From positions 186,001 to 250,000 of the forward strand of contig JAHBUH010000002.1 of NCBI GenBank assembly GCA_019638185.1: DNA of 64,000 nt. The letters run 5' to 3'. Positions 24,403-48,452 of the stretch are shown here, piece by piece (positions within the stretch are counted from its first letter, which is position 1; every line of letters starts with the position of its first letter). A model generated the notes under the pieces. The model was given only the letters and a program-made list of their open reading frames with translations. It did no database searches and was not told the origin of the DNA. The position numbers and the translations under genes are program-made. Source of the DNA: Leadbetterella sp. Its GTDB lineage: Bacteria; Bacteroidota; Bacteroidia; Cytophagales; Spirosomataceae.

Positions 24403-24427
24403 CAAATTGTTCCCGGAAATAGAGCTG

Positions 24428-25324
24428 ATGAAGAAAAATATCCTCGTGGTTTACTATACGCAATCAGGCCAGCTAAAGGCTATTGCGGATAGTATTTTAC
24501 AGCCTTTTAGGGACTGTAATGTGGTTTTTCACGAAATCAAAATGGAAGAGGAGTTCCCTTTTCCCTGGACGGGCGACAGCTTTTTTAATAGTTTCCCGGA
24601 TTCTTTCCAGCAGCGGCCGCAGCGGCTGAAACCCGTTCCCGCAGAAATCCTGGAAGGGAACTATGACCTTGTGCTTTTTCATTATCAGGTATGGTTTTTG
24701 AGTCCGTCTATCCCGGTGACCTCTTTCCTGAAGAGTGCTGACGGGCAAAAGCTCCTGTCGGGCCGGCCGGTAGTAACGGTCAGTGGTACCCGGAATATGT
24801 GGATCCTGGCCCAGGAAAAGGTTAAAAAGTTATTGAAAGAAGCGGGAGCACATCTGGTGGGAAATGTGGCGCTGGTAGACCGGGCCGCTAACCTGGTGAG
24901 TGTGGTGACCATTGTAGACTGGCTGTTTTCAGGCGTTAAAAGAAAATACCTGGGGATTTTCCCGATGCCAGGGGTATCGGAAGAGGACATCCGGGGGGCG
25001 GAACGGTTCGGCCGGATCATCCGGGATCACCTGGAGGCCGGCAGCCTGGGTAGCCTTCAGCCGGAGCTGGCGGCGAACGGGGCCGTGCCCATCAGTTCCT
25101 TCCTGCTTTCCGTAGACCAGAAAGGAAACGCCATCTTTAAAAAGTGGGTGCAGATCATTGATAAGCGGCCTGCCCAAAGGAAGTTCCTGTTAAAGTTGTT
25201 CAATATTTACGTGGTGTTAGCGCTGTACGTGGTATCGCCCATTGTATTTGTGTTTCATAACCTCACCTATCCGTTTTGGAGGAAATCATTTTTAAGAGAG
25301 AGAGAATATTTTCAGAGTGTTTAG
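24428..25324 (+). CDS. darA: DarA-type dialkylresorcinol-forming enzyme
   Basis: 298 aa from the ATG at 24428, directly before a flavodoxin-like first strand (ILVVYYTQSGQLKAIA, an FMN-phosphate-binding-type loop). A central region FHYQVWFLSPSIPVTSFL and TVSGTRNMWILAQEKV follows, and a hydrophobic C-terminal helix (IYVVLALYVVSPIVFVFHNL) may attach it to the membrane. In characterised dar pathways DarB makes a dialkylcyclohexanedione and DarA oxidises it to the aromatic dialkylresorcinol. Gene order darA-darB, with 4 bp between stop and start, is the standard one in flexirubin clusters. Assignment rests on fold pattern and context. Confidence 0.88.
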   Translation: MKKNILVVYYTQSGQLKAIADSILQPFRDCNVVFHEIKMEEEFPFPWTGDSFFNSFPDSFQQRPQRLKPVPAEILEGNYDLVLFHYQVWFLSPSIPVTSFLKSADGQKLLSGRPVVTVSGTRNMWILAQEKVKKLLKEAGAHLVGNVALVDRAANLVSVVTIVDWLFSGVKRKYLGIFPMPGVSEEDIRGAERFGRIIRDHLEAGSLGSLQPELAANGAVPISSFLLSVDQKGNAIFKKWVQIIDKRPAQRKFLLKLFNIYVVLALYVVSPIVFVFHNLTYPFWRKSFLREREYFQSV

Positions 25325-25328
25325 ATTT

Positions 25329-26468
25329 ATGGCAGAAGTGTATATCACCCGCGCGGCAAAGTTTTTACCCAATGACCCCGTTACAAACGATGAAATGGAA
25401 GATTATCTGGGTCTGGTGAATAACGCCGCATCGCGGGCAAAAAGGATCGTATTAAGGAATAACGGGATAAAAACGCGGTATTACTCTTTCGATAAATCAG
25501 GTGTCAGCACGCATACGAATGCCCAGCTGACGGCAAAGGCCATTGAAGGCCTGTACGGTGAGGGGTTTGGCCCGGATGACATGGAGCTGCTTTCCTGCGG
25601 CACCTCTTCGCCGGATACCCTCATGCCCTCGCATACGGTACTGGTGCACGGGTTCCTGAAAAACCGGAACCTGGAGGTGAACTGCGCCTCCGGCAATTGC
25701 TGCGCCGGCATGAACGCCCTGAAATTCGGTTACCTTTCCGTAAAATCAGGACAAAGCCGCAATGCCGTCTGCGCCGGATCCGAGCGCACCTCTTCCTGGA
25801 TGTTGGCCGATAAGTTCAATGCCGAGATCCAGAACCTGGAAAAACTGGAAGAGCAGCCTATCCTGGCCTTTAAAAAAGATTTCCTGCGCTTTATGCTTTC
25901 TGACGGAGCTGGAGCCTTCCTGCTGGAGGATGCCCCCCGCGGGCCGCTTTCCCTGAAAATAGAATGGATGGAGGGCTACTCCTACGCCCATGAGCTGGAA
26001 ACCTGTATGTACGCCGGTGCGGAAAAGCAGGAAGACGGTAACGTGCGGCCCTGGAGCGAATATGATCCGCAGGAATGGCTGAACCAGTCGGTGTTTGCCA
26101 TCAAGCAGGACACCCGCCTCCTGGATCAGTATATCCTGGTCAAAGGGGCCGAGAGCCTGAAAATGGCCATCGACAAGCACGGCCTGGCTTCATCAGAAAT
26201 AGATTACTTCCTGCCGCATGTGTCTTCTCACTATTTTGTGAGCGGACTGGCCCAGGCCCTGGAAGAAAGAGGGGCGGGCATCCCGGCAGAAAACTGGTTC
26301 ATGAACCTGGACCGGGTAGGGAATGTAGGCGCCGGCTCCATTTACCTGGTGGTGGAAGAGCTTTTGGCCTCCGGGAAGCTGAAAGAAGGCGATAAGCTCC
26401 TGCTTTCGGTACCGGAAAGTGCCCGTTTCTCTTATACCTATGCCCTTTTAACCGTGGTGAGCGTATGA
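25329..26468 (+). CDS. darB: DarB-type ketosynthase III (cyclohexanedione-forming)
   Basis: 379 aa from the ATG at 25329. KAS III fold: the catalytic cysteine is expected at residue 125 in GNCCAGMNAL, a histidine in LPHVSSHYF and an asparagine in VGNVGAGS (compare GNTSAAS). DarB joins a beta-ketoacyl chain with an unsaturated acyl chain and cyclises the product to a 2,5-dialkylcyclohexane-1,3-dione. Its acyl chains come from fatty-acid synthesis. The gene follows darA after 4 bp and its stop overlaps the next ATG, so it belongs to the same transcript. Confidence 0.92.
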   Translation: MAEVYITRAAKFLPNDPVTNDEMEDYLGLVNNAASRAKRIVLRNNGIKTRYYSFDKSGVSTHTNAQLTAKAIEGLYGEGFGPDDMELLSCGTSSPDTLMPSHTVLVHGFLKNRNLEVNCASGNCCAGMNALKFGYLSVKSGQSRNAVCAGSERTSSWMLADKFNAEIQNLEKLEEQPILAFKKDFLRFMLSDGAGAFLLEDAPRGPLSLKIEWMEGYSYAHELETCMYAGAEKQEDGNVRPWSEYDPQEWLNQSVFAIKQDTRLLDQYILVKGAESLKMAIDKHGLASSEIDYFLPHVSSHYFVSGLAQALEERGAGIPAENWFMNLDRVGNVGAGSIYLVVEELLASGKLKEGDKLLLSVPESARFSYTYALLTVVSV

Positions 26469-26872
26469 TAAGTGTAGCTGAATTGTTGCCTCAGAAGTAT
26501 CCCTTTGTTATGGTGGATACGCTCATTCACTACACCGAAACCAGCATCCGATCCGGCTACACCATTCAGCCGGCCGATATTTTTGCCCAGAATGGGGTCT
26601 TCCTGGAAGGGGGCATCATTGAACACATGGCCCAATCCGTGGCCCTGCATACCGGTTACCAGTATTTCCTGAAAAATGAGCCCGCACCTGTGGGCTACAT
26701 CGGCTCCATCAGTAACGTATCCGTTCATCACCTGCCGGCGGTAGGCGAGACTCTGACCACCCGGGTGGAGATCCTCCAGGAATTTATGGGAATCACGCTG
26801 GTGGCCGTAGAAACCTTTGTCAATGATCTGCCGGTGGCCTCCGGGAAGATGAAAACCGTGCTGGCCTCATGA
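26465..26872 (+). CDS. ApeP-like hotdog 3-hydroxyacyl-ACP dehydratase (first of a pair)
   Basis: 135 aa hotdog-fold protein. LLPQKYPFVMVDTL corresponds to the FabZ/ApeP N-terminus (LLPHRyPflmvD) and GGIIEHMAQSVALHTG to the central helix with its acidic residue. The HFPG loop that carries the FabZ catalytic histidine is absent; this resembles the ApeP subunits of aryl polyene systems. It is expected to remove water from hydroxyacyl-ACP intermediates, perhaps as part of a heteromer. ATGA overlaps join it to darB and to the next gene. Confidence 0.82.
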   Translation: MISVAELLPQKYPFVMVDTLIHYTETSIRSGYTIQPADIFAQNGVFLEGGIIEHMAQSVALHTGYQYFLKNEPAPVGYIGSISNVSVHHLPAVGETLTTRVEILQEFMGITLVAVETFVNDLPVASGKMKTVLAS

Positions 26873-27339
26873 ATGAACTGCTGCAAATACACCAATACCT
26901 GCCCCACCAGAAGCCCATGCTGATGGTAGACGGCATCCGCCAGATCACCTCAGAGGGAGTGGAATGTGAGTTTTTTGTTTCGCCGGAATCGGTCTTCGTG
27001 GAAAACGGGTTTCTGAGTGAATCAGGGCTGATTGAAAATGCAGCACAGAGCGCCTCCTGCATTGTGGCGCAGAGCTATTACCTGGAAGAAACGCAAAACA
27101 GCGTGATCGGCTTTATCAGCTCCATCCGGAGTGTCACCATTTGTCATAAGCCCCCGGCGGGCAGTATCATCGTCACTAAAGCCGTTCTCCTGTCCCGGTT
27201 TGATTCGGAAAATTACAGTACCTGCCGGGTCCAATGCCGCACTTTTCAGGAGGAAATATTACTTTTGGAAGGAGAAATCAATCTGTTTATCCAGGAACAA
27301 GGCAATGAAAAAGGAAGAAGTACCCCAGGACAAGAGTAA
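26869..27339 (+). CDS. ApeP-like hotdog dehydratase homologue (second of a pair)
   Basis: 156 aa. The same fold as the preceding gene: YLPHQKPMLMVDGIRQIT at the start and SGLIENAAQSASC in the central helix; again no HFPG loop. The C-terminal 20 residues extend beyond the hotdog and overlap the start of the next gene by 35 bp. Tandem copies with different central residues (EHMAQ and ENAAQ) suggest a heterodimer or a division of labour. Whether each is active cannot be told. Confidence 0.8.
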   Translation: MNELLQIHQYLPHQKPMLMVDGIRQITSEGVECEFFVSPESVFVENGFLSESGLIENAAQSASCIVAQSYYLEETQNSVIGFISSIRSVTICHKPPAGSIIVTKAVLLSRFDSENYSTCRVQCRTFQEEILLLEGEINLFIQEQGNEKGRSTPGQE

Positions 27340-27709
27340 CCTGGCCTCCGCTAACATGCGGGAGCTGTGCTACGCTGTAGATAAAGACGGCAACTACACC
27401 ACCGCGCTAAGCACGGGCTGGGAGCCGAAAACCGTAGCGCTGGATAACTCCATAGCGGCCATTGAAGAATGGGTGGAAGATGCCAGACAGAAGATCAGGG
27501 ACGGCAAAGCCAGCCCCATCCTCTACTTTATGGAGCTGAATAAAATGGATCTGCAGGTGCTGGCCGGCTATACCGGCCTGTGGGTCTGGCGCGTAAAACG
27601 CCACCTGAAGCCGGGCGTCTTTCAGCGACTTAACGATAAGCTGCTGAACCGTTACGCGGAGGCTTTTAACATTACCCTTGAAGAATTAAAAAATTATAAA
27701 CCGGAATAA
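27305..27709 (+). CDS. Small protein with helix-turn-helix-like C-terminus, function unknown
   Basis: 134 aa from the ATG at 27305, inside the end of the preceding gene; a longer frame upstream is only a shadow of that gene. The C-terminal half (LQVLAGYTGLWVWRVKRHL, then LLNRYAEAFNITLEELKNY) has the length and pattern of helices 2-5 of a Cro/XRE-type DNA-binding domain. The N-terminal half (EWVEDARQKIRDGKASPILYF) has no match I recognise. It lies between dehydratase and acyltransferase-like genes with overlapping or adjoining ends, so it is either a small regulator co-expressed with the pathway or a helical accessory protein. Confidence 0.72.
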   Translation: MKKEEVPQDKSNLASANMRELCYAVDKDGNYTTALSTGWEPKTVALDNSIAAIEEWVEDARQKIRDGKASPILYFMELNKMDLQVLAGYTGLWVWRVKRHLKPGVFQRLNDKLLNRYAEAFNITLEELKNYKPE

Positions 27710-28705
27710 ATGGTTGTGGAATTTAAGCATCATCAGTCGGCCCATTGCGAAAACGGCGTAGCCTCTAACCTCCTCCGGCATAACGGGCTGAACCTGAGTG
27801 AACCCATGATCTTTGGGCTGGGTTCGGGCATCTTTTTTGTGTATATCCCTTTTCTGAAAGTGAATCATGCCCCGGCCATCAGTTACCGGCCCCAGCCGGG
27901 CATTATTTTCAGCCGGGTGGCCAAACGCCTGGGCATCCGGATCCGGCGTGAAAAATTTAACAACCCCGAAGACGCCCGCAAGGCGCTGGAGGAGAACCTG
28001 GCTAACGGCATTCCCACGGGCCTGCAGGTAGGGGTGTTTCACCTGCCCTACTTCCCGGATCAGTACCGCTTTCACTTTAATGCCCATAACCTGGTGGTTT
28101 ACGGGAAAGAAGAAGGAAAATACCTGGTCAGTGACCCGGTAATGGAGGGGACCACCTCCCTGAGCGACGAAGAACTGGAAAAAGTAAGGTATGCCAAAGG
28201 AGCGCTGGCTCCCCGGGGGCAAATGTATTTCCCTACCTATATCCCGGCGAATATTGACCTGAAAAAGGCCATTGTCAAAGCCATTCAAAGCGCCTGCTCC
28301 ACCATGCTGGCCCCGGTCCCTATAGTAGGTGTGCGCGGCGAACGGCTGGTGGCCCGGAAGATCCGCAAATGGCCGGAGAAAGTGGGGGTGAAGACCACAA
28401 ACCACTACCTGGCGCAGATTGTACGGATGCAGGAGGAGATCGGTACGGGCGGCGGCGGCTTCCGTTATATTTATGCGGCCTTTTTACAGGAAGCGGCCGA
28501 TATCCTGGAAAAGCCCGAACTGAAAGCCCTGTCGGTGGAAATGACATCAATAGGCGATGAATGGCGCGATTTCGCGCTGAATGCCTCCCGGATACTGAAA
28601 AACAGGAAGGCGGAAGACGGCATGTACCAGGCGCTGGCCGACCAGCTGGACGGCCTGGCCGACCGGGAAGAAGCATTCTTCAAAAAATTAAAGAAAGCAG
28701 TGTGA
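27710..28705 (+). CDS. BtrH-like acyl-transfer protein (BtrH_N plus DUF4872)
   Basis: 331 aa. The N-terminal domain begins HHQSAHCENGVASNLLRHNG, the BtrH_N signature, with Cys13; NAHNLVVYG provides His126 and LVSDPV Asp142, a Cys-His-Asp triad arranged as in C39-like folds. The C-terminal half (from about residue 190) is helical, as in DUF4872. In butirosin synthesis BtrH moves an acyl group from a carrier protein to the acceptor. By analogy this protein could pass the aryl polyene chain from ACP to an acceptor such as the dialkylresorcinol. That role is inferred. It starts one base after the preceding stop. Confidence 0.83.
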   Translation: MVVEFKHHQSAHCENGVASNLLRHNGLNLSEPMIFGLGSGIFFVYIPFLKVNHAPAISYRPQPGIIFSRVAKRLGIRIRREKFNNPEDARKALEENLANGIPTGLQVGVFHLPYFPDQYRFHFNAHNLVVYGKEEGKYLVSDPVMEGTTSLSDEELEKVRYAKGALAPRGQMYFPTYIPANIDLKKAIVKAIQSACSTMLAPVPIVGVRGERLVARKIRKWPEKVGVKTTNHYLAQIVRMQEEIGTGGGGFRYIYAAFLQEAADILEKPELKALSVEMTSIGDEWRDFALNASRILKNRKAEDGMYQALADQLDGLADREEAFFKKLKKAV

Positions 28706-29469
28706 GTGAGACGGTAAAAAACAGCATCATCCGGATTCATACGTTAAGCAAAAAATACCGGGAAGCTGAAGACTACTCGGTAAATGAGCTGTCGCTGGAC
28801 ATTCCCCGGGGCGAGATTTTCGGGCTGCTGGGCCCGAACGGAGCGGGTAAAACCACGCTGATCTCCATGCTCTGCGGACTGATCCGGCCCACCAGCGGCG
28901 ATTTTACCATTAACGGCTGGTCTTACCGGTCGGAACCCCGCAAGATCCGGAAAAACATAGGTGTGGTACCCCAGGAATATGCCCTGTACCCCTCCCTGAC
29001 CGCCCGGGAAAACCTGGTGTATTTCGGCAGTATGTACGGGCTGGGCGGGGCAGCGCTGGACGGGAAAGTGGAAGAGCACCTGGGGCACCTGGGGCTCTTG
29101 AAGCATGCCGATAAGAAGATAGAAACCTACTCGGGCGGGATGAAAAGGCGGGTAAACCTCATTGCCGGCATCCTGCATTCGCCCATGGTGCTGTTCCTGG
29201 ATGAACCCACCGTAGGCGTGGATATCCAGAGCAAAAACGTGATCATTGATTTCCTGAAAGCCTATAACAAACAGGGCGCCACGCTGATCTATACTTCGCA
29301 TCACCTGATCGAGGCCCAGGAGTTCTGCACCCGGGTGGCCATCCTGGACCACGGCGAAGTGCTGACCGAAGGTACCCCGCAGGAACTCATTAAAGGGCTG
29401 GCACAGGCACGCTCACTGGAAGATGTATTTTTATCATTGGTAGGAAAAGAATTACGGGATTATGCATAA
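28702..29469 (+). CDS. ABC transporter ATP-binding protein
   Basis: 255 aa from a GTG at 28702 that overlaps the stop of the BtrH-like gene (GTGA); a longer upstream frame runs through that gene and is rejected. Walker A GPNGAGKTT, Q-loop VVPQEYALYPSLTA, signature YSGGMKRRV, Walker B LFLDEPTVGVD, switch TSHH. It is the DrrA/CcmA-like type that works with ABC-2 permeases in exporting hydrophobic compounds. The permease gene overlaps its end by 8 bp. It would power export of the pigment or an intermediate across the inner membrane. Confidence 0.93.
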   Translation: MSETVKNSIIRIHTLSKKYREAEDYSVNELSLDIPRGEIFGLLGPNGAGKTTLISMLCGLIRPTSGDFTINGWSYRSEPRKIRKNIGVVPQEYALYPSLTARENLVYFGSMYGLGGAALDGKVEEHLGHLGLLKHADKKIETYSGGMKRRVNLIAGILHSPMVLFLDEPTVGVDIQSKNVIIDFLKAYNKQGATLIYTSHHLIEAQEFCTRVAILDHGEVLTEGTPQELIKGLAQARSLEDVFLSLVGKELRDYA

Positions 29470-30739
29470 GCTTTGGGCATCGGTAAAAAAAGAAAGCCTG
29501 CTTTTGCGCCGGGATGCCGGCGCGCTGATCATCCTGTTTGTGATGCCGCTGGCGCTGATCATTACGGTCACGCTGATCCAGCAGGGATCGTTCAAAACGC
29601 TCAGTAACGCTAAAATCCCGGTGGTGCTCATCGATAACGACCGCGGGAATGTCTCCCGAGGCATCCGGGAGAACCTGGAAAACAGCGGTAGTTTCGAGAT
29701 CATTTCGGAAAGAGAGGGGAAGCCACTCACGGAAACGCAGGCACGGGATGCCGTCTTCAAAGGACTGTACCCCATGGCGGTGATCGTGCCGGAAAATCTT
29801 TCTGCCGACCTGAACCAGAAAGTGCAGGTAAACGTAGATAAGATCCTGAAAGATGTGGGCCTGGGCGATGGCGAGACCAAGGCCATTGCGTCTGAAGTGG
29901 AGCCCAAAGAGATCCGCCTCTATTTTGACCCGGCCACCCAGCTGGCCTTTAAAAGTGCAGTGAAAAACAGCATTGACAAGATGGTGTCCGAGCTGGAAGT
30001 GCAGTCGGTGTACTCCCTTTTCCAGGAGCAGCTGAGCGACAGCGTGGCTATCTTCAGCCAGAAATCTTTCCTGCATTTCAAAGAGATCATGCCGGTAAAC
30101 GGCAGCCGGGAGGTGATCCCTAACGCCACCCAGCACAATGTACCCGCCTGGACACTCTTCGCTATTTTCTTTATTGTGATTCCGCTTTCCATTAACCTGG
30201 TGAAGGAAAAAGGCCAGGGCACGCTGGTGCGTCTCAGAACCCTGCCCATGCCTTATGGGGTGGTGATCATGGGAAAAACCGTGACCTTCCTGGTGATCTG
30301 CATGATCCAGTTTTACCTGATGGTGGCCGTAGGCATTTACCTGTTCCCGCTGCTGGGCCTGGAGCCCCTCCAGGTGGAAGGAAAGCTCCTGCTGATGAGC
30401 GTGGTGGCGCTGTGTTCGGGCTTTGCGGCCATCGGCTTCGGTATCCTGCTGGGCACGGTAAGCCAGACCCAGGAGCAGTCGGCGCCGTTTGGTGCCACCT
30501 CCGTAGTGATCCTGGCGGCCATCGGCGGGGTTTGGGTGCCGGTATTTGCCATGCCCGCCTTTATGCAGTTTGTGTCCGGGCTTTCGCCCATGAACTGGGG
30601 CTTAAACGCCTTTTACGACGTGATCCTCCGCAATGCGCACCTGGCAGATATCCTGCCCCGCCTGGCTTCACTATTGGTGTTTTTTATCCTGATGACAGGC
30701 ATATCCATCCTGTATGATGAAAAGAAAAGAGCCGTATAA
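29462..30739 (+). CDS. ABC-2 type permease
   Basis: 425 aa. One N-terminal helix (ALIILFVMPLALIITVTLI), a large extracytoplasmic domain (about 45-225), then five or six helices (VPAWTLFAIFFIVIPLSI; FLVICMIQFYLMVAVGIYL; LLLMSVVALCSGFAAIGFGILLG; SVVILAAIGGVWVPVF; LASLLVFFILMTGISILY). This is the YhhJ/ABC-2 layout of lipid and drug exporters. It forms the channel for the ATPase encoded just upstream. The gene's 3' end overlaps the thioesterase start. Confidence 0.92.
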   Translation: MHKLWASVKKESLLLRRDAGALIILFVMPLALIITVTLIQQGSFKTLSNAKIPVVLIDNDRGNVSRGIRENLENSGSFEIISEREGKPLTETQARDAVFKGLYPMAVIVPENLSADLNQKVQVNVDKILKDVGLGDGETKAIASEVEPKEIRLYFDPATQLAFKSAVKNSIDKMVSELEVQSVYSLFQEQLSDSVAIFSQKSFLHFKEIMPVNGSREVIPNATQHNVPAWTLFAIFFIVIPLSINLVKEKGQGTLVRLRTLPMPYGVVIMGKTVTFLVICMIQFYLMVAVGIYLFPLLGLEPLQVEGKLLLMSVVALCSGFAAIGFGILLGTVSQTQEQSAPFGATSVVILAAIGGVWVPVFAMPAFMQFVSGLSPMNWGLNAFYDVILRNAHLADILPRLASLLVFFILMTGISILYDEKKRAV

Positions 30740-33587: not shown

Positions 33588-33845
33588 ATGGACCAATTAA
33601 AACTTGAGATCAAAGAAAAGATCATAGCCGCCCTTAACCTGGAAGACGTTACCGCCGCTGATATTAAAGACGATGACGCCCTCTTCGGCGATGGTCTGGG
33701 TCTCGACTCCATCGATGCGCTGGAGCTGATTGTAATGCTGGACAAAGATTACGGCATCAAGCTGTCAGATCCGAAAGAAGGCAGAAATATTTTCCGGTCG
33801 GTAGAAACCATGGCCGCCTATATTGCAGAGCACAGAACGAAATAA
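33588..33845 (+). CDS. Acyl carrier protein (first of two)
   Basis: 85 aa. The phosphopantetheine attachment serine is in LGLDSIDALEL (the DSL/DSI motif). Acidic, helical, normal ACP size. It begins directly after the stop of the half-ketosynthase and ends directly before the next ketosynthase ATG. It would carry the growing polyene chain. It needs activation by a phosphopantetheinyl transferase; one is encoded at the end of the leftward arm. Confidence 0.95.
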   Translation: MDQLKLEIKEKIIAALNLEDVTAADIKDDDALFGDGLGLDSIDALELIVMLDKDYGIKLSDPKEGRNIFRSVETMAAYIAEHRTK

Positions 33846-39138: not shown

Positions 39139-40338
39139 ATGAATTATCTTTGCAAACAGAAGACCATTGGAAAATTGAGGATTACGTCGAAATACAAGTG
39201 GTGCGTGATCATTCCCACCTATAACAATCACCGGACGCTGGCGGGGGTGATCAGTGGTGTGCTGCAATACACGCAGGCGGTGATTGTGGTGAACGACGGC
39301 TCCACCGACAGCACCGCGGAAATCCTTCAAACATTTCCCGCCCTTACCGTCCTGGAACATCCGCATAACCAGGGCAAAGGAGCAGCCTTAAAAAACGGCT
39401 TCCGGAAAGCCCTGGAGATGGGATATGAATATGCCATTACCATTGATTCCGACGGCCAGCATTTCCCCGATGACATCCCGGTATTTATGGAAAGGCTGAA
39501 CGCCTCTGACGGCAATATCCTGCTGATCGGGGAGCGTAACATGGCCCAGGAGGGCATTCCCCGGAAGAGCAGTTTCGGAAATAAGTTTTCCAATTTCTGG
39601 TTTCGCTTTGAAACCGGCGTGAAGCTCGGCGATACGCAGTCGGGGTACCGGCTCTACCCGCTTACCCGGATGCCGGAACGTTATTTTACCCCTAAATTTG
39701 AGTTTGAGATCGAGTCCATCGTGCGGGCCTCCTGGAAGGGCGTACATGTGGAAAATGTGCCGGTACGGGTGCATTATGAGCTGAAAGACCGGGTATCGCA
39801 TTTCCGGCCTTTCCGCGATTTTACCCGTATCAGCATTCTGAATACGGTGCTGGTGGTGATCACCCTGCTATATATCAAACCACGGGATTTTATCCGTAAC
39901 TTAAAAAAAAAAGATCTTAAGCAATTCCTGAAAGAAGAGGTGCTGGAAAGCAGCGACAGCCGTCACACCAAGGCATTTTCCATGGCTTTGGGGGTGTTTT
40001 GGGGCATAGTGCCGCTCTGGGGTTTTCAAACCGTGGGGGTGCTGGGTTCGGCTTACGCGCTTCGCCTGAATAAGCTCATCGCTTTTGCGTTTTCGAATAT
40101 CAGCCTGCCGCCTTTCATTCCCCTGATCATTTTAGGCTCCCTGAAAGTGGGGGGCTGGTTTGTAGATGCGCCTTCGCTGCCTGACGGGCCGCTGACCTTT
40201 GAGCTGGCGCAGCGTCATTTGTCGCAATACCTCATCGGCAGTTCCGTGCTGGCCATTCTGCTGGCCTGTATTTCGGGCCTGACTGGCTACGCTATCCTTA
40301 CTTATTTCTCCAGGACTAAAACGGCGCTGAATGCATAG
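39139..40338 (+). CDS. Glycosyltransferase family 2 fused to DUF2062
   Basis: 399 aa from ATG 39139, or 387 aa from TTG 39175, which the promoter favours. N-terminal GT2 domain: VIIPTYNNHRTL, VVNDGSTDSTAE, IDSDGQHFPDDI (the DxD-like metal site), GERNMAQEGIPRKSSF and DTQSGYRLYPL. After about residue 245 there is one membrane segment, then a DUF2062 domain (AFSMALGVFWGIVPLWGFQT; FSNISLPPFIPLIILGSL) with further helices. This DPMS-like enzyme likely adds a sugar to a lipid or membrane acceptor. GT2 genes are usual members of aryl polyene clusters. Overlaps the next gene by 8 bp. Confidence 0.9.
   Translation: MNYLCKQKTIGKLRITSKYKWCVIIPTYNNHRTLAGVISGVLQYTQAVIVVNDGSTDSTAEILQTFPALTVLEHPHNQGKGAALKNGFRKALEMGYEYAITIDSDGQHFPDDIPVFMERLNASDGNILLIGERNMAQEGIPRKSSFGNKFSNFWFRFETGVKLGDTQSGYRLYPLTRMPERYFTPKFEFEIESIVRASWKGVHVENVPVRVHYELKDRVSHFRPFRDFTRISILNTVLVVITLLYIKPRDFIRNLKKKDLKQFLKEEVLESSDSRHTKAFSMALGVFWGIVPLWGFQTVGVLGSAYALRLNKLIAFAFSNISLPPFIPLIILGSLKVGGWFVDAPSLPDGPLTFELAQRHLSQYLIGSSVLAILLACISGLTGYAILTYFSRTKTALNA
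39145..39152 (+). promoter_or_regulatory. Candidate -7 box that argues for a TTG start of the glycosyltransferase
   Basis: TATCTTTG matches TAnnTTTG but lies downstream of the first in-frame ATG (39139). Transcription from it would start at about 39158, leaving the in-frame TTG at 39175 as the first usable codon. Confidence 0.4.
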
Positions 40339-43300
40339 GCTCTTTATCCGCATCCACAGGTTTGTTGAGAAAAACAGGGTACTTAGCCTGTTCCTGGCGC
40401 TGAGCTACCTGGTGTTAACCGGCTTCCTGTTTACCCGCCTGCAGTTTGAAGAAGATATTACGCGCCTGATCCCGAAGAGCGAGTCGTCTGACCGGGCCTC
40501 CCGGGTGCTGAACAGCCTGGAATTTGCAGATAAGATCACGGTACTGATCCGGAAGGCGGAAGGTGGAAATACGGAAGACCTCACGGCCATGGCTGACGCC
40601 TTCCTCGACAGCCTGACCGTATGCCAGCCCTACGTGCGCTCGGTGCAGGGCCGGCTTTCTGAAGATACTTTTGAGGAGGCTTTCCGCTTTGTGCGTTCCC
40701 ACCTGCCCCTGTTCCTGGATCCGGCAGATTACCAGACCCTGGCTAGCCGGCTCCGGCCCGACAGCCTCCGGCAGACGGTGCAGGAAAATTACCGTACCCT
40801 GACCTCACCCTCCGCTTTTCTTTCGGGCCGTATGGTGATGGAAGACCCGCTGGGAATGACCTTTCAGGGCTTACGGAAATTACAGGACCTGAATGCAGGG
40901 GAGGACTTTGTTACCGAAAACGGCTATGTACTCACCCCGGATCGCCGGAATCTCCTGCTCTTTATTAACCCGGTGCTGGCCGGGAACGAGACCGAGAAAA
41001 ATACGATTTTTGCCGGGGAACTGTACCGCATCCAAAACGCACTTAACGGGGAATTTAAAACCAGGAGTACCCTGGAATACCACGGCGCTGCCCTGATTGC
41101 CGTGGCCAATGCCCGCCAGATCAAGCGTGACATTGTCACCACCACGGCCGTGGCCCTGACCGTGCTGATGCTGATCCTGATGCTGTATTACCGGCGGTTC
41201 TACATCCCGGTGCTGCTGTTTATCCCTACGGTGTTTGGCGTGCTGCTGGCTACCACGGCCCTGTATTTTCTTAAAGACACCATTTCAGCTATTTCCCTGA
41301 GCATTGGGGCTATTTTGCTGGGGGTGACCATTGATTATGCCCTGCATATCCTGACCCATTATAAGCATAACAGCGACCTGGAAACCCTGTATCGTGACAT
41401 CACCCGGCCGCTGATCATGAGCAGTACCACCACGGCCGTGGCCTTTCTCTGCCTGCTTTTTGTGCACTCCGAAGCCCTGAGAGACCTGGGGATCTTTGCG
41501 GCGGTAGCAGTGGTGGCCTCGGCCATCTTCTCGCTGATCATTATCCCGCATTTGTACCGGCCGCAGGCCGCAACTCATGCGCTCACGGTGTCCCCAAGCG
41601 GTATATCCCCGGACTTCAGCCCGGAGCATAGTGCGGTGGCGGCCCCCCCGGCCGGTAAACCGGGAAATATCCTGGACCGGCTTTCTGCCTATCCCTTTGA
41701 ACGGAGCCGGCTGCTGATCCTGCTGTGTGTGGTGGCCATTGGGGCGAGCCTTTTTACCTATAAAAGAGTAAGTTTTAACGAAGATATTTCCCGGCTGAAC
41801 TATGTGCCGGAAGAAATTAAGCTGACTGAAAAAAAACTGGAGGCTTCTACGCACCTCACCTCTAAATCCCTTTACCTGGTGAACTATGCCGGCAGTGTGG
41901 ATTCCGTGCTGGACCGGAGCCGCGCGCTGGCCGCGGAGCTTAGGGAAATGAAGGCCGCCGGGCTGATCCTGGATTTCAGCTCACCGGCAGACCTCCTGCT
42001 TTCCCGGTCGGTACAGCAGCAGAAGATAGACCAGTGGAACCGTTTCTGGACACCGGAAAGAAAAAAACTCCTGGAGCAGACCTTTGTTTCGGAGGGCCGG
42101 AAGACCGGCCTTGCAGAAGATGCCTACCGGTCATTTTTTGAGTTGCTCCACCATGATTTCCGCCCGGAAGGTCCCGAAGCTTACCTGGATTTTGAAGCCC
42201 TTTCCCTGCAGGATTTTATCAGCAGCAAAGACGGGCTGCACAGCGTGACCACCCTGGTGAAAATAGATGAAAACCGGCGTGATGAAGTGGTGAACCGCCT
42301 GAAAGGGGGGGAGTCACTGCTGGTGATTGACCGGCAGCAGTTGAACGAAACCTTCCTGGGTAACCTCAAAAACGATTTTAACCGGTTGGTGAACCTGTCG
42401 TTTATCGCTGTTTTACTCATTCTCTTCGTCTTTTTCCGGCGGGTGGAGCTGGTGCTGATCAGCGCCATTCCCATCGCCCTCACGGGGCTGGTTACGGCCG
42501 GAGTCATGGGGCTGCTGGGCATTGACCTGAATATTTTCAGCACCATTGTCTGTACGCTGGTGTTCGGGCATGGGGTGGATTTCAGCATTTTCATGACCTC
42601 GGCCCTGCAGAAAGAATACACTTATGGCAGGGATGAAATGCCACTTTACCGCACTTCCGTGCTACTGGCCGTGCTGACCACCATCCTGGCCATAGGGGCG
42701 CTGATCTTTGCGCAGCATCCGGCCCTGAAGTCCATTTCTGCGGTATCGCTGGTGGGGGTATTTACGGCGGTGCTTATCACTTTTGTGTTTTATCCGCTGC
42801 TCTTCCGGGCATTTATCGCCTGGCGGCCTAAGCACGGCAAATCGCCCGTACGGTTATTTATCCTGGTTACTTCCGTGGTTTCGTTTACCTATTACGGACT
42901 GGGCGGGCTTTTCTTCTCGTTTTTAAGTACGCTGGCCTCTTTCTGGCCGGGAGACCAGGAAAAGCTGAAGCGTGGCCTACGGTGGTTTATGGCGAAATTT
43001 ATGAAGACCGTGCTGGACACGAACGTGAGCCTGAAGAAAACGCGCATTATCAATACCACGGGTGAGGATTTCCGTAAACCCGCCGTTTTTATTGCCAATC
43101 ATACCACTTTCCTGGATATCCTGCTGATGGGTATGCTGCATTCCAAAACGGTTTTCCTGGTGAGCGACTGGGTTTATAACAGCCCGATTTTCGGCAAAGG
43201 GGTGCGTTTCCTGGGCTTCTACCCGGTTTCACAGGGACTGGAGGGCGGTGTGGAGCAGCTGCGGAGTAAGATAGAGGCGGGTTATTCGGTGGTGGTATTC

Positions 43301-44002
43301 CCGGAAGGGACGCGCTCCCGGGATAACAGCGTCAAGCGCTTCCACAAAGGTGCTTTTTACCTGGCGGAGCATTTCGGGATGGATATTCTGCCTATCCTGA
43401 TACATGGCGGTTCGGATGTGCTGCCCAAAGGCGACTTTGTTATCCGGCGCTACCGGCTGACCCTGAAATTTCTGGAAAGGATTCCGGCCGGTGACCCGTC
43501 TTTTGGCAAAGACCTCAGGGAAAGAACCAAAGCCATCAGCCGGCATTTCAGGGAGCAGTATGAGCGCCTGCGGGAAGAGCTGGAAGGCCCGGCATACTTC
43601 AGGAAGATCCTGATGGAGAATTTTGTGTACAAAGAGCCGGCCGTGCTGGAAGCCGTGAAAGTGGGCCTGGAAGAGAAGGAGAAACGCTTTTTCCAGATAG
43701 AGCCGGAGCTTTCAGCCCGGGCGAAAATTTTACATATTGCGGATGATCACGGCGAAGGTGACCTCCTGCTGGTGCTGAAGCAACCGGCCCGGAAGGTGGA
43801 TTCCTGGATCGGGGACGAGGAGAAACGCGATGTGGCCCGGAATAATTTCATGGTAAAAAACCGTATCCTGCATTACCCGGACCAGCGGCCTGATAGTGGT
43901 CCCTATGATGTGCTGCTGATCTCTTGTACGCATAACCTGCCGGAAGAATGGCTACAGTCTTTTCCGCGGGTAATTGACCTTAATACGTATGGTGCAGTAT
44001 GA
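40331..44002 (+). CDS. MMPL/RND-type exporter fused to a PlsC-type acyltransferase
   Basis: 1223 aa, two units in one chain. Residues 1 to about 840 form an MMPL-type transporter: two repeats of one helix, a periplasmic loop (with a REF-like FEEDITRLIP motif near residue 40 and FNEDISRLNY in the second), and five helices, including LLGVTIDYALHILTHY and VFGHGVDFSIFMTSAL. From about 890 to 1110 there is an acyltransferase with NHTTFLDILLM (HX4D, near 922) and FPEGTRSRD (near 990). The last 100 residues are unassigned. MMPL proteins export hydrophobic compounds; PlsC acylates lipids. The fusion points to lipid attachment coupled to export (inference). Confidence 0.92.
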   Translation: MHRLFIRIHRFVEKNRVLSLFLALSYLVLTGFLFTRLQFEEDITRLIPKSESSDRASRVLNSLEFADKITVLIRKAEGGNTEDLTAMADAFLDSLTVCQPYVRSVQGRLSEDTFEEAFRFVRSHLPLFLDPADYQTLASRLRPDSLRQTVQENYRTLTSPSAFLSGRMVMEDPLGMTFQGLRKLQDLNAGEDFVTENGYVLTPDRRNLLLFINPVLAGNETEKNTIFAGELYRIQNALNGEFKTRSTLEYHGAALIAVANARQIKRDIVTTTAVALTVLMLILMLYYRRFYIPVLLFIPTVFGVLLATTALYFLKDTISAISLSIGAILLGVTIDYALHILTHYKHNSDLETLYRDITRPLIMSSTTTAVAFLCLLFVHSEALRDLGIFAAVAVVASAIFSLIIIPHLYRPQAATHALTVSPSGISPDFSPEHSAVAAPPAGKPGNILDRLSAYPFERSRLLILLCVVAIGASLFTYKRVSFNEDISRLNYVPEEIKLTEKKLEASTHLTSKSLYLVNYAGSVDSVLDRSRALAAELREMKAAGLILDFSSPADLLLSRSVQQQKIDQWNRFWTPERKKLLEQTFVSEGRKTGLAEDAYRSFFELLHHDFRPEGPEAYLDFEALSLQDFISSKDGLHSVTTLVKIDENRRDEVVNRLKGGESLLVIDRQQLNETFLGNLKNDFNRLVNLSFIAVLLILFVFFRRVELVLISAIPIALTGLVTAGVMGLLGIDLNIFSTIVCTLVFGHGVDFSIFMTSALQKEYTYGRDEMPLYRTSVLLAVLTTILAIGALIFAQHPALKSISAVSLVGVFTAVLITFVFYPLLFRAFIAWRPKHGKSPVRLFILVTSVVSFTYYGLGGLFFSFLSTLASFWPGDQEKLKRGLRWFMAKFMKTVLDTNVSLKKTRIINTTGEDFRKPAVFIANHTTFLDILLMGMLHSKTVFLVSDWVYNSPIFGKGVRFLGFYPVSQGLEGGVEQLRSKIEAGYSVVVFPEGTRSRDNSVKRFHKGAFYLAEHFGMDILPILIHGGSDVLPKGDFVIRRYRLTLKFLERIPAGDPSFGKDLRERTKAISRHFREQYERLREELEGPAYFRKILMENFVYKEPAVLEAVKVGLEEKEKRFFQIEPELSARAKILHIADDHGEGDLLLVLKQPARKVDSWIGDEEKRDVARNNFMVKNRILHYPDQRPDSGPYDVLLISCTHNLPEEWLQSFPRVIDLNTYGAV

Positions 44003-45494
44003 TGCTATCGTAATCGGGAGCGGCCTGGGCGGCCTGGCTTCAGCTATCCTCCTGGCAAAGGAGGGGCTGAAAGTGCTGGTCCTGGAGAAAAATAACCAGT
44101 TGGGTGGAAATTTACAGACTTTTTCCCGCCAGAAGACCCTGTTTGATACGGGTGTACATTACATAGGTGGCCTGGATAAGGGCCAGAACCTGTACCGGTA
44201 TTTTAAGTACCTGGGCATTTATGACGGCCTGGAGCTCAGCCGGATGGATGCCGACGGCTTTGACATGATCTCCTTTGACGGAGACCCTAACCAGTACCCG
44301 CATGCCCAGGGTTATGAGAATTTTGTGCGGCAGCTGCTACCGTATTTCCCGGATGAAGAAGAAGCTTTGCGAAGCTACTGTGCGCGGATGCAGGAGGTTT
44401 GTGCCTCGTTTCCCCTGTATAACCTGGAATCAGAAGGCAGCTATGACCCCGAAGTGCTGGGGATCAATACCCGCGACTACCTGGACTCGCTGACCGCTAA
44501 TGAAAAGTTGAAGGCCGTGCTGGCCGGATCTTCATATCTCTATGCCGGTATTGCGGCAAAAACACCCTTTTATGTGCATGCCTTGTCCGTTAATTCCTAT
44601 ATAGAAAGTGCCTGGCGTGTAGTGAAAGGGGGCAGCCAGATCACCCGCCAGATCGTGAAAGAGCTGAAGAAATACGATGTTACCCTTCTGAAACACTGCG
44701 AGGTGACGGACTTTATTTTTGAGGGAGAGGAGATGACGGGCGTAAGAACGCGTTCAGGGGAAGCATACACGGGCAAATTATTTATTTCCAATATAGACCT
44801 GAAAGCCACCCTTGACCTGGCCGGATGTTTCCGGAAGGCCTTTACTAACCGCATCCGGCTGCTGGAGCCCGTGGTAGCGGCCTTCAGCCTGTATGTGGTG
44901 TTCAAGCCGGGCTGCTTCAAGTACGAGAACCGGAACTTTTACCACATGCGTAACGAATCCAGCGTGTGGTCCGCCCAGTTTTACGATGAGGCCACCTGGC
45001 CCCAAAGCTACATGGCTTCCATGAGCCTGAAAAATCCCGGCGATGTGTATGCCGAAAGTATGACCTTTATGACCTATATGCGTTTTGAGGAGGTCAGGCC
45101 GTGGGCAGATACAGTCAATACAGCGGCTTGTAAAACCGACCGGGGGGCGGACTATGAAGTCTTCAAGCAGGAACGTACCGAACGCTTCCTGGCGGAAATT
45201 GAAAAGAAGTTTCCCGGTATACGGGAGTGCATTAAAGGCGTTTATGCGTCTACTCCGCTGTCTTACCGCGACTATATCGGGGGGGAGAACGGAAATATGT
45301 ACGGTTATGTGAAAGACAGTAACCGGCCCATGCTTACCTTTATATCGCCGAAGTCCCAGGTGAAAAACCTGTATTTCACGGGTCAGAGCGTGAATATGCA
45401 CGGCATACTGGGGGTGACCATCGGGGCGGTGGCTACCTGCTCCGAGATCCTGGGAAAGAAATACCTGCTGGATAAGATAAACCGTGAGATTTAA
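43989..45494 (+). CDS. FAD-dependent oxidoreductase, phytoene-desaturase/CrtI-like
   Basis: 501 aa from the ATG at 43989, which overlaps the preceding gene by 14 bp. Dinucleotide-binding site VIGSGLGGLASAILLAKEG with following VLEKNNQLGGNLQTF, then TGVHYIGG, and the C-terminal FTGQSVNMHGILGVTIGAVATC typical of carotenoid-desaturase/retinol-saturase-like enzymes. It may oxidise or reduce carbon-carbon double bonds of the polyene. Exact reaction unknown. Homologues occur in flexirubin clusters, to my knowledge. Confidence 0.88.
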   Translation: MVQYDAIVIGSGLGGLASAILLAKEGLKVLVLEKNNQLGGNLQTFSRQKTLFDTGVHYIGGLDKGQNLYRYFKYLGIYDGLELSRMDADGFDMISFDGDPNQYPHAQGYENFVRQLLPYFPDEEEALRSYCARMQEVCASFPLYNLESEGSYDPEVLGINTRDYLDSLTANEKLKAVLAGSSYLYAGIAAKTPFYVHALSVNSYIESAWRVVKGGSQITRQIVKELKKYDVTLLKHCEVTDFIFEGEEMTGVRTRSGEAYTGKLFISNIDLKATLDLAGCFRKAFTNRIRLLEPVVAAFSLYVVFKPGCFKYENRNFYHMRNESSVWSAQFYDEATWPQSYMASMSLKNPGDVYAESMTFMTYMRFEEVRPWADTVNTAACKTDRGADYEVFKQERTERFLAEIEKKFPGIRECIKGVYASTPLSYRDYIGGENGNMYGYVKDSNRPMLTFISPKSQVKNLYFTGQSVNMHGILGVTIGAVATCSEILGKKYLLDKINREI

Positions 45495-47160
45495 GCTGCT
45501 ACATAGTGTGATGGGGCTGCTGCTGCTGAGTGGCTGCGGAACGGCTAAGCTGAAAAGGTATTCCCTGCCTTATACGGTGCCGGAAGTTTCGCGCGTGCAG
45601 CCGGCCGGCCGGGTAACACCCGGAGGCAGCCTGAACCGGAATCCTTACGGCCTCTGGGAGCTGTACGTGGAGGGCTCGCCCCTGGAACTGGGGCTGAGAA
45701 ACGGTGCGCTCAGCGACAGCCTGTACCGGCACCAGGAAACTGTTTTTTTCAGGAAAGTGGAGGAGATCGTACCCTCCCGGGGGAAACAATGGCTGCTCCG
45801 GAAATTCCTGGCCTGGTATAATCGCAAACTGCCACGGAGCATTATCCCAGAATACCGGCAGGAGCTCTACGGACTTTCCCGGTATGCTTCTGACAGCCTG
45901 GATTTTATAGCTCCGCCTTATTCCCGTACCCTGTACCTGCACGGGGCTCATGATATCGGGCATGCCCTGCAGGACCTGGCCATGGTAGGCTGCACGTCAT
46001 TTGCGGTGTGGGGTGAAAATACCGAAGACGGAAAGCTGCTGATAGGCCGGAATTTTGATTTTTATGCCGGCGATGAATTTGCGGAAAATAAGGTAGTGGC
46101 ATTTGTGAAGCCGGATTCGGGTTATGGGTTTATGTCGGTCAGTTGGCCGGGGATGATCGGGGTGGTTTCAGGCATGAACACCGAGGGGCTTACGGTGACC
46201 ATTAATGCGGGGAAATCGTCCATCCCCATGGCGGCCCGTACGCCCGTTTCCCTGCTGGTGCGGGAGATCCTGCAATACGCCCGGAATATCGATGAGGCCG
46301 TGGCTATTGCCGCCCGTCGCCGGGTTTTTGTTTCAGAGAGTATTATGGTGGGAAGTGCGGCTGATAACCGGGCTATCCTGATTGAAATATCGCCCCGTAA
46401 AAAAGGCATTTTTGACGTGAATAACTCGGCGCAACTGGTTTGTTCCAATCATTTTCAGAGCCCGGCCTATTCGGAGGATAAGAAGAACCGGAAGCAGCAG
46501 GAAGAAAGCCATTCGGTGTACCGTTTTGAGCGTATGAGCCAGCTGCTGGGCCAGACTGAGCCGGTAAACGTGGAAAAGGCGGTGGCTATTCTCCGTAACC
46601 GCCAGGGGCTGGACGACCGGCAGATCGGGCTGGGGAATGAGAAATCGCTGAACCACCTGCTGGCTCACCACGGGGTGGTATTCCGGCCGGCCGAGCGCAA
46701 GGTGTGGGTATCGGCCCGTCCCTACCAGTTGGGGGCCTTTGTGGCTTATGACCTGAAAGCGATTTTTCCGGGGGGGCAAATGCGGCATAACCGCACTTCC
46801 GAAACGGGAAATACAGTCGTACCTGCGGCCGGGAGTCACAGGGGAGAAATGCTGTACAATGCTTCGGAAACTCTGCCGGAAGACCCTTTTCTACACAGCC
46901 CGGCCTATGCCGGCTACGAGCGTTACCGGGTGCTGGACCGCACGCTGGACCTGGCGCTGAAGGAGCGAACTGTGCTGCCCGATTCATTTTTTGAAGAGTA
47001 TATTGCTTTGAATCCTGAACTTTGGTCCGTATATTACAAAGCAGGAAAGTATTTTAAGAAAAAAAAGCAGCAAGATAAAGCCCGGGTTTATTTCGAAACG
47101 GCTTTGACCAAAGAGATCACCACGCGGCCTGCGCGACGGGAAATTGAGAAGAATTTATGA
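45484..47160 (+). CDS. C45-family peptidase/acyltransferase-like lipoprotein
   Basis: 558 aa from a GTG at 45484 that overlaps the oxidoreductase end by 11 bp. Lipoprotein signal with lipobox LLSGC (Cys18). The Ntn-hydrolase core begins at Cys170 in MVGCTSFAVWGENTEDGKLLIGRNFDF, the choloylglycine hydrolase/isopenicillin-N acyltransferase pattern, followed by WPGMIGVVSGMNTEGLTVTINAG. Relatives need chain cleavage or exposure of this cysteine. It could move or remove an acyl group on the periplasmic side of the membrane, so it is a second candidate for forming or hydrolysing the flexirubin ester. Inference only. Confidence 0.82.
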   Translation: MRFKLLHSVMGLLLLSGCGTAKLKRYSLPYTVPEVSRVQPAGRVTPGGSLNRNPYGLWELYVEGSPLELGLRNGALSDSLYRHQETVFFRKVEEIVPSRGKQWLLRKFLAWYNRKLPRSIIPEYRQELYGLSRYASDSLDFIAPPYSRTLYLHGAHDIGHALQDLAMVGCTSFAVWGENTEDGKLLIGRNFDFYAGDEFAENKVVAFVKPDSGYGFMSVSWPGMIGVVSGMNTEGLTVTINAGKSSIPMAARTPVSLLVREILQYARNIDEAVAIAARRRVFVSESIMVGSAADNRAILIEISPRKKGIFDVNNSAQLVCSNHFQSPAYSEDKKNRKQQEESHSVYRFERMSQLLGQTEPVNVEKAVAILRNRQGLDDRQIGLGNEKSLNHLLAHHGVVFRPAERKVWVSARPYQLGAFVAYDLKAIFPGGQMRHNRTSETGNTVVPAAGSHRGEMLYNASETLPEDPFLHSPAYAGYERYRVLDRTLDLALKERTVLPDSFFEEYIALNPELWSVYYKAGKYFKKKKQQDKARVYFETALTKEITTRPARREIEKNL

Positions 47161-48452
47161 TGGACCTTACGATAGAAACCTGGAGCAGGGAGAAGATAAC
47201 GGCATTCCAGGAAATCAAACTGCAGCAAGCCCTGAACTATGTGGCACGGAATTCCCCCTTTTACCAGCGGTATTACCGGGAAGAAGGCGTGAGTATAACA
47301 GAGGTGGCTGATCTGCCTGGCCTGCAGAAGCTGCCTTTTACCACGAAGGAGCATCTCCAGCAGTTTAACCCTGAGTTTCTGTGTGTGCCACCCCATAAGG
47401 TAGTAGATTACGCTACCACTTCGGGCACCTCCGGCAGCCCGGTGACCTTTGCACTGACCGATGCCGACCTGGAGCGGCTGGCGTATAACGAGGCGGTGTC
47501 TTTTGCCTGTTCCGGTGTGGAAAAGGGCGATGTGGTGCAACTGATGACCACCATGGACCGGCAATTTATGGCCGGCCTGGCGTATTTTCTGGGCTTAAGG
47601 AAACTGGGAGCCACCGTGGTGCGGGTAGGGGCAGGGATCCCCGAGCTGCAGTGGGACGCCATACAACGTTACCGGCCGGCTTACCTGATCACCGTGCCGT
47701 CATTCCTGATCAAGATGATCGAATACGCCGAAGTAAACGGTATAGACTACCGGAACAGCGGGGTAAAAGGGGCTATCTGTATCGGGGAGCCTCTCCGGAA
47801 CCAGGATTTTTCTTCCAATAATATCAGTGCCAAGATCACGGAAAAGTGGGACATTTCCCTGTTTTCCACCTACGCATCTACGGAAATGAGCACGGCTTTT
47901 GCCGAATGTGCGTTCCGGCAGGGCGGACATCATCATCCTGACCTGATCATTGTGGAAGTGGTGGATGAAGAAGGCCGGCAGGTGGCTGACGGCGAAAGTG
48001 GCGAGCTGGTAGTAACCACCCTGGGCGTGGAGGCCATGCCCCTGGTGCGTTTTAAAACCGGCGATATCGTACAGGTGCATTGCGAGCCCTGCGGATGCGG
48101 CCGGAACTCGCTCCGCCTGGGACCGGTGATAGGCCGGAAGCAGCAGATGATCAAATACAAGGGCACCACCCTGTACCCACCGGCCATGAATAACCTGCTG
48201 AACGGCTTCGATGAAATCCGGAACCACCTGATCGAGATCACCACGAACGAACTGGGCACCGATGAGATCCAGATCTATCTGGCCGTAGACGAACCCTCAG
48301 ATGATTTCCAGAGCCATATCCGGGACCATTTCCGCGCCAAGCTGCGCGTAACCCCTAAAATTGAATTTTTAACCCTGGAAGAGCTGAATAAGCGGGTTTA
48401 CCTGCCGAAGAGCCGTAAGCCGGTGCAGTTTGTGGACAGGCGGGGGAATTGA
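47157..48452 (+). CDS. Phenylacetate-CoA-ligase-like adenylate-forming enzyme
   Basis: 431 aa. The ANL family: ATP loop YATTSGTSGSPVTFALT, AYLITVPSFLI, YASTEMSTAFAECA, and VRFKTGDIVQ (A8-type region), with four cysteines CEPCGCG in a PaaK-like loop. It is expected to activate an aromatic acid, here most plausibly p-coumarate or 4-hydroxycinnamate made by the tyrosine ammonia-lyase, and load it on CoA or ACP to prime the polyene. It begins within the previous stop (ATGATGG) and ends the rightward arm. Confidence 0.9.
   Translation: MMDLTIETWSREKITAFQEIKLQQALNYVARNSPFYQRYYREEGVSITEVADLPGLQKLPFTTKEHLQQFNPEFLCVPPHKVVDYATTSGTSGSPVTFALTDADLERLAYNEAVSFACSGVEKGDVVQLMTTMDRQFMAGLAYFLGLRKLGATVVRVGAGIPELQWDAIQRYRPAYLITVPSFLIKMIEYAEVNGIDYRNSGVKGAICIGEPLRNQDFSSNNISAKITEKWDISLFSTYASTEMSTAFAECAFRQGGHHHPDLIIVEVVDEEGRQVADGESGELVVTTLGVEAMPLVRFKTGDIVQVHCEPCGCGRNSLRLGPVIGRKQQMIKYKGTTLYPPAMNNLLNGFDEIRNHLIEITTNELGTDEIQIYLAVDEPSDDFQSHIRDHFRAKLRVTPKIEFLTLEELNKRVYLPKSRKPVQFVDRRGN

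Follow-up and report, generated by a model that had tools for sequence, protein, structure and literature searches.

DarH, a BtrH-type protein, as candidate for the polyene-resorcinol joining step of a flexirubin-type cluster in Leadbetterella sp.

A stretch of 64,000 nucleotides from Leadbetterella sp. (contig JAHBUH010000002.1, positions 186,001 to 250,000), hereafter the window, contains a flexirubin-type cluster in which one gene, darH, probably codes for the enzyme joining the aryl-polyene to the dialkylresorcinol through the flexirubin ester. We infer this role from protein family, fold and gene distribution, with a probability of about 0.7, and it is the best-supported reading because DarH tracks the dar genes and is missing from two Bacteroidota clusters of the polyene-only type.

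The darH reading frame (27710-28705, forward strand) begins with ATG and codes for 331 amino acids, and a search of the 4.2 Mb genome returned a single copy. Two Pfam domains, both above their gathering scores, follow each other in the order BtrH_N (residues 12–143, E 4.1e-54, 182.9 bits versus a gathering score of 29.7) and DUF4872 (residues 154–327, E 1.3e-60, 204.5 bits versus 28). In NCBIfam (release 20) the protein matches NF053550, 'BtrH-related acyltransferase DarH', with 515.5 bits (cut-off 300), residues 4–328 being placed on positions 1–325 of the model.

The first-pass annotation had described a BtrH_N fold with a Cys13-His126-Asp142 triad, and this description holds: the three residues lie at these positions and each is invariant in 90 of 90 DarH sequences. 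The count comes from a 94-row automatic alignment of 90 DarH proteins and four paralogs taken from Bacteroidota genomes and from named genomes found by a pattern scan, six truncated copies (L065, L066, L075, L091, L104 and L108) being omitted. Invariance in all 90 extends to His12, Glu14, Glu242, Gly245-Thr-Gly-Gly248, Phe251 and Arg252. The four paralogs keep the Cys and the His, with the Asp in register in alignment A1 and one column off in the automatic alignment. In the DarH model Cys13 opens helix 13–24, His126 opens strand 126–134 and Asp142 is placed right behind strand 137–141; these are the places to be expected in a papain-like active site. By sequence and secondary structure, the conserved Cys, His and acid of the BtrH/CcbD/CtaG acyltransferases are present in DarH at papain-like positions, and family models, residue conservation and modelled fold all support its assignment as a BtrH-type acyltransferase with a putative Cys-His-Asp triad. 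Other proteins of this architecture were also seen. Bacteroidota paralogs with BtrH_N and DUF4872 (L025–L028) reach 152–186 bits on the DarH model and lie far from any DarB, one of them (L027) adjoining a papain-family protease reading frame and a GNAT. BtrH_N-type proteins about 25–30% identical to DarH occur on 62 plasmid records, 45 of them from Acinetobacter and others from haloarchaea and Streptomyces.

In structure comparisons the common fold of the BtrH/CcbD/CtaG acyltransferases spans both DarH domains. CtaG, AziU3 and CcbD match over both halves at root-mean-square deviations near 3–4 Å and lead the best peptidase match by 8 to 11 Z units. No solved BtrH structure was among the structural and PDB matches, and CtaG and CcbD were compared instead. 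The best Foldseek match is AziU3/Azi29 (E 3e-11). When PDB sequences were searched with the DarH profile, 11 matches came back. The strongest (E 2.4e-5) are helical designed proteins that align to the C-terminal helices, and they were taken as chance; Azi29/AziU3 stood at E 0.7. With the single sequence AziU3/Azi29 were the sole matches, weak ones (E 0.28 and 0.29) over the His126-Asp142 region.

The distribution of DarH was followed in 296 Bacteroidota genomes, the same set serving for DarH, DarB and FlxY. Matches above the cut-off were obtained for DarH in 23 genomes, for DarB in 22 (with G017 in addition at 519 bits) and for FlxY in 25. All 23 genomes with DarH have DarB, FlxY and DarA, and DarH is absent from both polyene-only genomes (G118 and G238), where FlxY is above the cut-off and DarA is absent; no dar gene was found across 19 kb around the polyene cluster of G118. 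The C45 protein of the cluster type (defined by a threshold of >220 bits, placed in the gap that separates 227 from 177 bits) accompanies FlxY in 24 of 25 genomes, G118 and G238 included. The remaining genome, G099, lacks it and has DarA, DarB, DarH and FlxY. DarH thus tracks the resorcinol genes and the C45 protein tracks the polyene genes. The Fisher values for co-occurrence are tiny and overstate the case, because related genomes are not independent. Within the genus of the window DarH occurs in one of nine other genomes (G296–G304), so that the dar part, at least, is patchy there.

A pattern scan of named genomes provided, among the matches listed, 80 foreign loci of at most 8 kb each, all 80 carrying DarH; as the pattern was deliberately GC-rich to set Bacteroidota aside, they are an unfair sample of phyla. 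DarB is seen in 57 of these loci (weakly in L099) and lies above the cut-off in 45 of 50 whole genomes picked from them with loci lacking a visible DarB favoured. Among 219 genomes of the class to which Pseudomonas guryensis (G367) belongs, DarB is above the cut-off in 11 and DarH in nine, all nine being among the 11 and all having DarA. Two DarH loci (L049 and L116) come from bins whose titles name Klebsiella pneumoniae and Bifidobacterium breve; for clusters of this type these labels look doubtful and the contigs may be mis-binned.

DarB by itself was not accepted as a sign of resorcinol synthesis, since DarB-like proteins occur without DarA in G238, G254, G280, G400 and G458, the first three also being without DarH. 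Eight plasmid records hold DarB relatives; in the three records examined, the gene table, which is incomplete, shows no neighbouring gene of the DarA or DarH type. On two Bacteroidales plasmids, H41 (L043) and H42 (L041), a DarB-like ketosynthase adjoins a TetR-type regulator, and neither DarA nor DarH is annotated nearby. For the polyene, an ApeI-like marker was found in 9 of 19 genomes but not in G118 and G238, which have flx genes. An AMP-ligase/ApeI marker was found in 14 of 42 genomes but not in G560 and G452, which have ApeI-like matches. Neither of the two was a universal marker and, because both miss known cases, lack of a marker was not counted as lack of a polyene.

The genes of the cluster that enter the argument are placed in the window as follows.

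24407..25324, + strand: DarA, dialkylresorcinol aromatase, without a Pfam or NCBIfam match and assigned because it precedes DarB and is conserved across dar loci
25317..26468, + strand: DarB, dialkylresorcinol-forming ketosynthase (NF053539, 650 bits, cut-off 550)
26465..26872, + strand: FabZ-like dehydratase, below the NCBIfam cut-off
26869..27339, + strand: ApeP/FabZ-like dehydratase, below the Pfam and NCBIfam cut-offs
27305..27709, + strand: DarG, small conserved partner, its stop codon touching the darH ATG
27710..28705, + strand: DarH, BtrH_N (12-143) and DUF4872 (154-327), predicted acyltransferase with triad Cys13/His126/Asp142
28702..29469, + strand: ABC transporter ATPase, its probable GTG start picked by eye (listed reading frame from 28561)
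29462..30739, + strand: ABC-2 permease
33588..33845, + strand: acyl carrier protein that may carry the polyene chain
40331..44002, + strand: MMPL exporter with a fused PlsC-type acyltransferase domain at residues 910-1024, an alternative candidate for the ester step
45484..47160, + strand: autoproteolytic acyltransferase or hydrolase of the C45/AAT family whose N-terminus looks lipobox-like by eye, an alternative candidate for the ester step
47157..48452, + strand: FlxY, flexirubin acyl-CoA ligase (NF053551, 706 bits, cut-off 520)

The darG stop and the darH ATG abut with zero gap and the probable GTG start of the ABC ATPase overlaps the darH stop by four bases, and DarG, DarH and the exporter genes therefore look translationally coupled. 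The dehydratases and the ABC exporter had both been placed next to darH in the first-pass annotation; the ABC-2 exporter does follow directly, whereas the dehydratases are near but separated from it by DarG. Downstream of the exporter come polyene-type genes, the PlsC-MMPL fusion, the C45-family protein and FlxY.

In the proposed mechanism DarH would act as a cysteine acyltransferase with a papain fold, akin to BtrH, CcbD and CtaG, probably located in the cytoplasm and following a ping-pong course. The finished aryl-polyenoyl chain would pass from an acyl carrier protein, for which the cluster has a gene, to Cys13 as a thioester; assisted by His126 and Asp142, a phenolic hydroxyl on the dialkylresorcinol that DarA and DarB produce would attack this thioester, and the flexirubin ester would be released and then exported. 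According to PMC3992019, darA and darB produced free resorcinol in a heterologous host, so DarH is free to act after them. Passages of PMC3949708 and PMC3992019 describe flexirubin and arcuflavin as polyene-resorcinol esters, both from strains with dar genes.

Several points weigh against this role. The main one, against the rule that DarH is found whenever both halves are present, comes from G485 and G579, which have DarA and DarB as stand-alone pairs (L188 in G485 and L187 in G579) with no DarG or DarH within 19–20 kb around them and no DarH match genome-wide, and each of which has an aryl-polyene-like cluster on another stretch (L199/L200). This can mean that the two products are not joined there, or that another enzyme joins them. 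Five of the 50 DarH genomes (G332, G336, G345, G347 and G356) have no DarB match; they are metagenome bins with DarH contigs of 3.5–13.7 kb and were retained in the count. Among 60 genomes searched for DarA, 14 have DarH and no DarA match, mostly metagenome bins or short contigs. These 14 comprise the five without DarB and nine with it (G338, G340, G341, G343, G351, G355, G357, G359 and G361; profile A3), in which either the bins are incomplete, DarA has diverged, or a different aromatase and acceptor are used. Two of the nine DarH-positive genomes in the P. guryensis class (G453 and G512) gave no match to either of the two polyene markers tried. The co-occurrence counts depend partly on descent, and the described relatives of DarH make amides rather than phenol esters. 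FlxW was proposed for the joining step by authors who studied the cluster (passages of PMC3992019), and the passages returned by a full-text literature search contain no experiment on DarH as an ester-forming enzyme or on its pairing with DarG. As to the first-pass proposal that a BtrH-like protein unites polyene and resorcinol, its BtrH-type acyltransferase is supported and is found to track the dar genes; the reaction itself stays conditional and is weakened by G485 and G579. That annotation named neither the DarH family nor DarG, the partner found across phyla.

The ester might instead be made by another acyltransferase of the cluster, either the PlsC domain on the MMPL exporter or the C45/AAT protein, with DarH performing a different acyl transfer, which we regard as unlikely. 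Both belong to acyltransferase families and both lie in the cluster. In the polyene-only genome G118 the MMPL reading frame (812 amino acids) aligns to residues 1–838 of the window protein, so that it stops short of the PlsC domain (the rest of that genome being unsearched for PlsC), and it is followed by a Cupin_8 reading frame (L032 4075-7375 versus window 40331-44002). However, the MMPL-PlsC fusion is also found in polyene-only G238 (alignment spanning 448–1179), a PlsC-type reading frame lies in the aryl-polyene-like cluster of G579, and the C45 protein goes with the polyene, as described above. The N-terminus of the C45 protein resembles a lipoprotein signal by eye, so this protein would probably act outside the cytoplasm. 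It is improbable that DarH acts earlier, moving the acyl chain between carrier proteins or releasing it for resorcinol assembly. Such a role is suggested by the association outside Bacteroidota, which is well shown for DarH with DarB and only in part for DarH with the polyene (an ApeI-like match in seven of the nine DarH genomes of the P. guryensis class, one below the cut-off), but free resorcinol was obtained from darA and darB in the heterologous host, and G485 and G579 have both genes without DarH.

That DarH is a C39-like peptidase processing a peptide or an exporter component is highly improbable. The papain-like fold, the ABC exporter directly downstream and the C39 peptidase domains among the structural matches would agree with it. 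C39 peptidases have the peptidase fold without the DUF4872 half, and their oxyanion-hole Gln stands about six residues before the Cys. In all 90 DarH sequences a His stands six residues before the Cys, at residue 7, a position paired with the C39 Gln by sequence offset. Well-fitting matches fall mainly within residues 1–180; CtaG, AziU3 and CcbD cover both halves with the higher scores given above, and DarH occurs without nearby ABC genes in G269 and G017. The same two genomes were the reason for dropping the idea of DarH as part of the ABC exporter. The peptidase label itself goes back to an older name, 'BtrH-like peptidase', found in PMC3949708.

DarG is probably the protein partner of DarH. 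DarG lies directly upstream of DarH in 71 of the 80 listed loci (same strand and within 800 bases by script), also in L057 by coordinates, and seven more listed loci end before the DarG position. In G017 the DarG-DarH pair is on a different contig from DarA-DarB. An uncultured Prevotellaceae record (L111) carries the N-terminal 63 residues of DarG fused to DarH in tandem reading frames (1303-2580 and 2626-3900, both on the minus strand), the DarG part being seen by NCBIfam in one copy (48.5 bits, below the cut-off) and by eye in the second. This near-constant adjacency and the fusion suggest that the two proteins would be in physical contact. The DarG model shows a beta-hairpin, a long helix and five short helices, its C-terminal half being like Cro/C1 domains, to which the Foldseek matches are weak (best E 0.02); this fold is seen although the gene sits in a biosynthetic operon. 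By record titles the DarG-DarH module occurs in Bacteroidota, Pseudomonadota, Deltaproteobacteria and other groups. A tentative extension, to which we give less than even odds, is that DarG-DarH forms a two-subunit papain-fold phenol O-acyltransferase welding aryl-polyene to dialkylresorcinol and spread as a module, with the Cro/C1-like DarG reused for docking and not for DNA-binding regulation.

Pigments of the flexirubin type, which classically mark Bacteroidota, have their two parts united by the ester bond, and in the literature passages available the enzyme forming it is a blank or a guess (FlxW). With DarH there is one candidate gene, with known residues to target and a probable partner, which makes the ester step directly testable; if the assignment is true, the range of carrier-protein cysteine acyltransferases would widen beyond amides to include phenol esters.

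Since NCBIfam already has a name for the family, and a table published in 2014 lists a probable homolog as a 'BtrH-like peptidase', the protein itself is no novelty. The window protein is the same as the NF053550 family at equivalog-level score, with nothing different in sequence, and the family name would give its function class. Table 1 of PMC3949708, in the part available and the only full-text source among those returned that has 'BtrH' together with 'flexirubin', lists the BtrH-like protein in the arcuflavin dar cluster of Azoarcus BH72. This DarE (azo0290) follows darA, darB and darD, as DarH here follows DarA, DarB and DarG, and it is the probable equivalent of DarH, judged by gene order, the BtrH label and Azoarcus-labelled records of the same order (L086, L088 and L118). 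NCBIfam DarG and DarH seem to correspond to darD and darE of that paper, whose own darG and darH, in the part seen, are antitoxin- and PilT-type genes. The word DarH also stands twice in PMC10312091.

AziU3/Azi29 of azinomycin was solved in complex with AziU2; AziU3 serves the aziridine step of azinomycin and is not known to carry out an acyl transfer. BtrH of butirosin, namesake of the N-terminal Pfam family of DarH, is given as an acyl carrier protein:aminoglycoside acyltransferase in passages of PMC10318531 and PMC8430323; it N-acylates an aminoglycoside and has BtrG as partner, where DarH would have DarG. CcbD (lincosamide) and CtaG (closthioamide) share the full-length fold with DarH at 10–17% identity. 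The triad of CcbD is Cys-His-Glu and its donor is bound to a carrier protein, whereas for CtaG transfer from a carrier is proposed. Both acylate amines, whereas DarH would make a phenol ester with a long polyenoyl donor.
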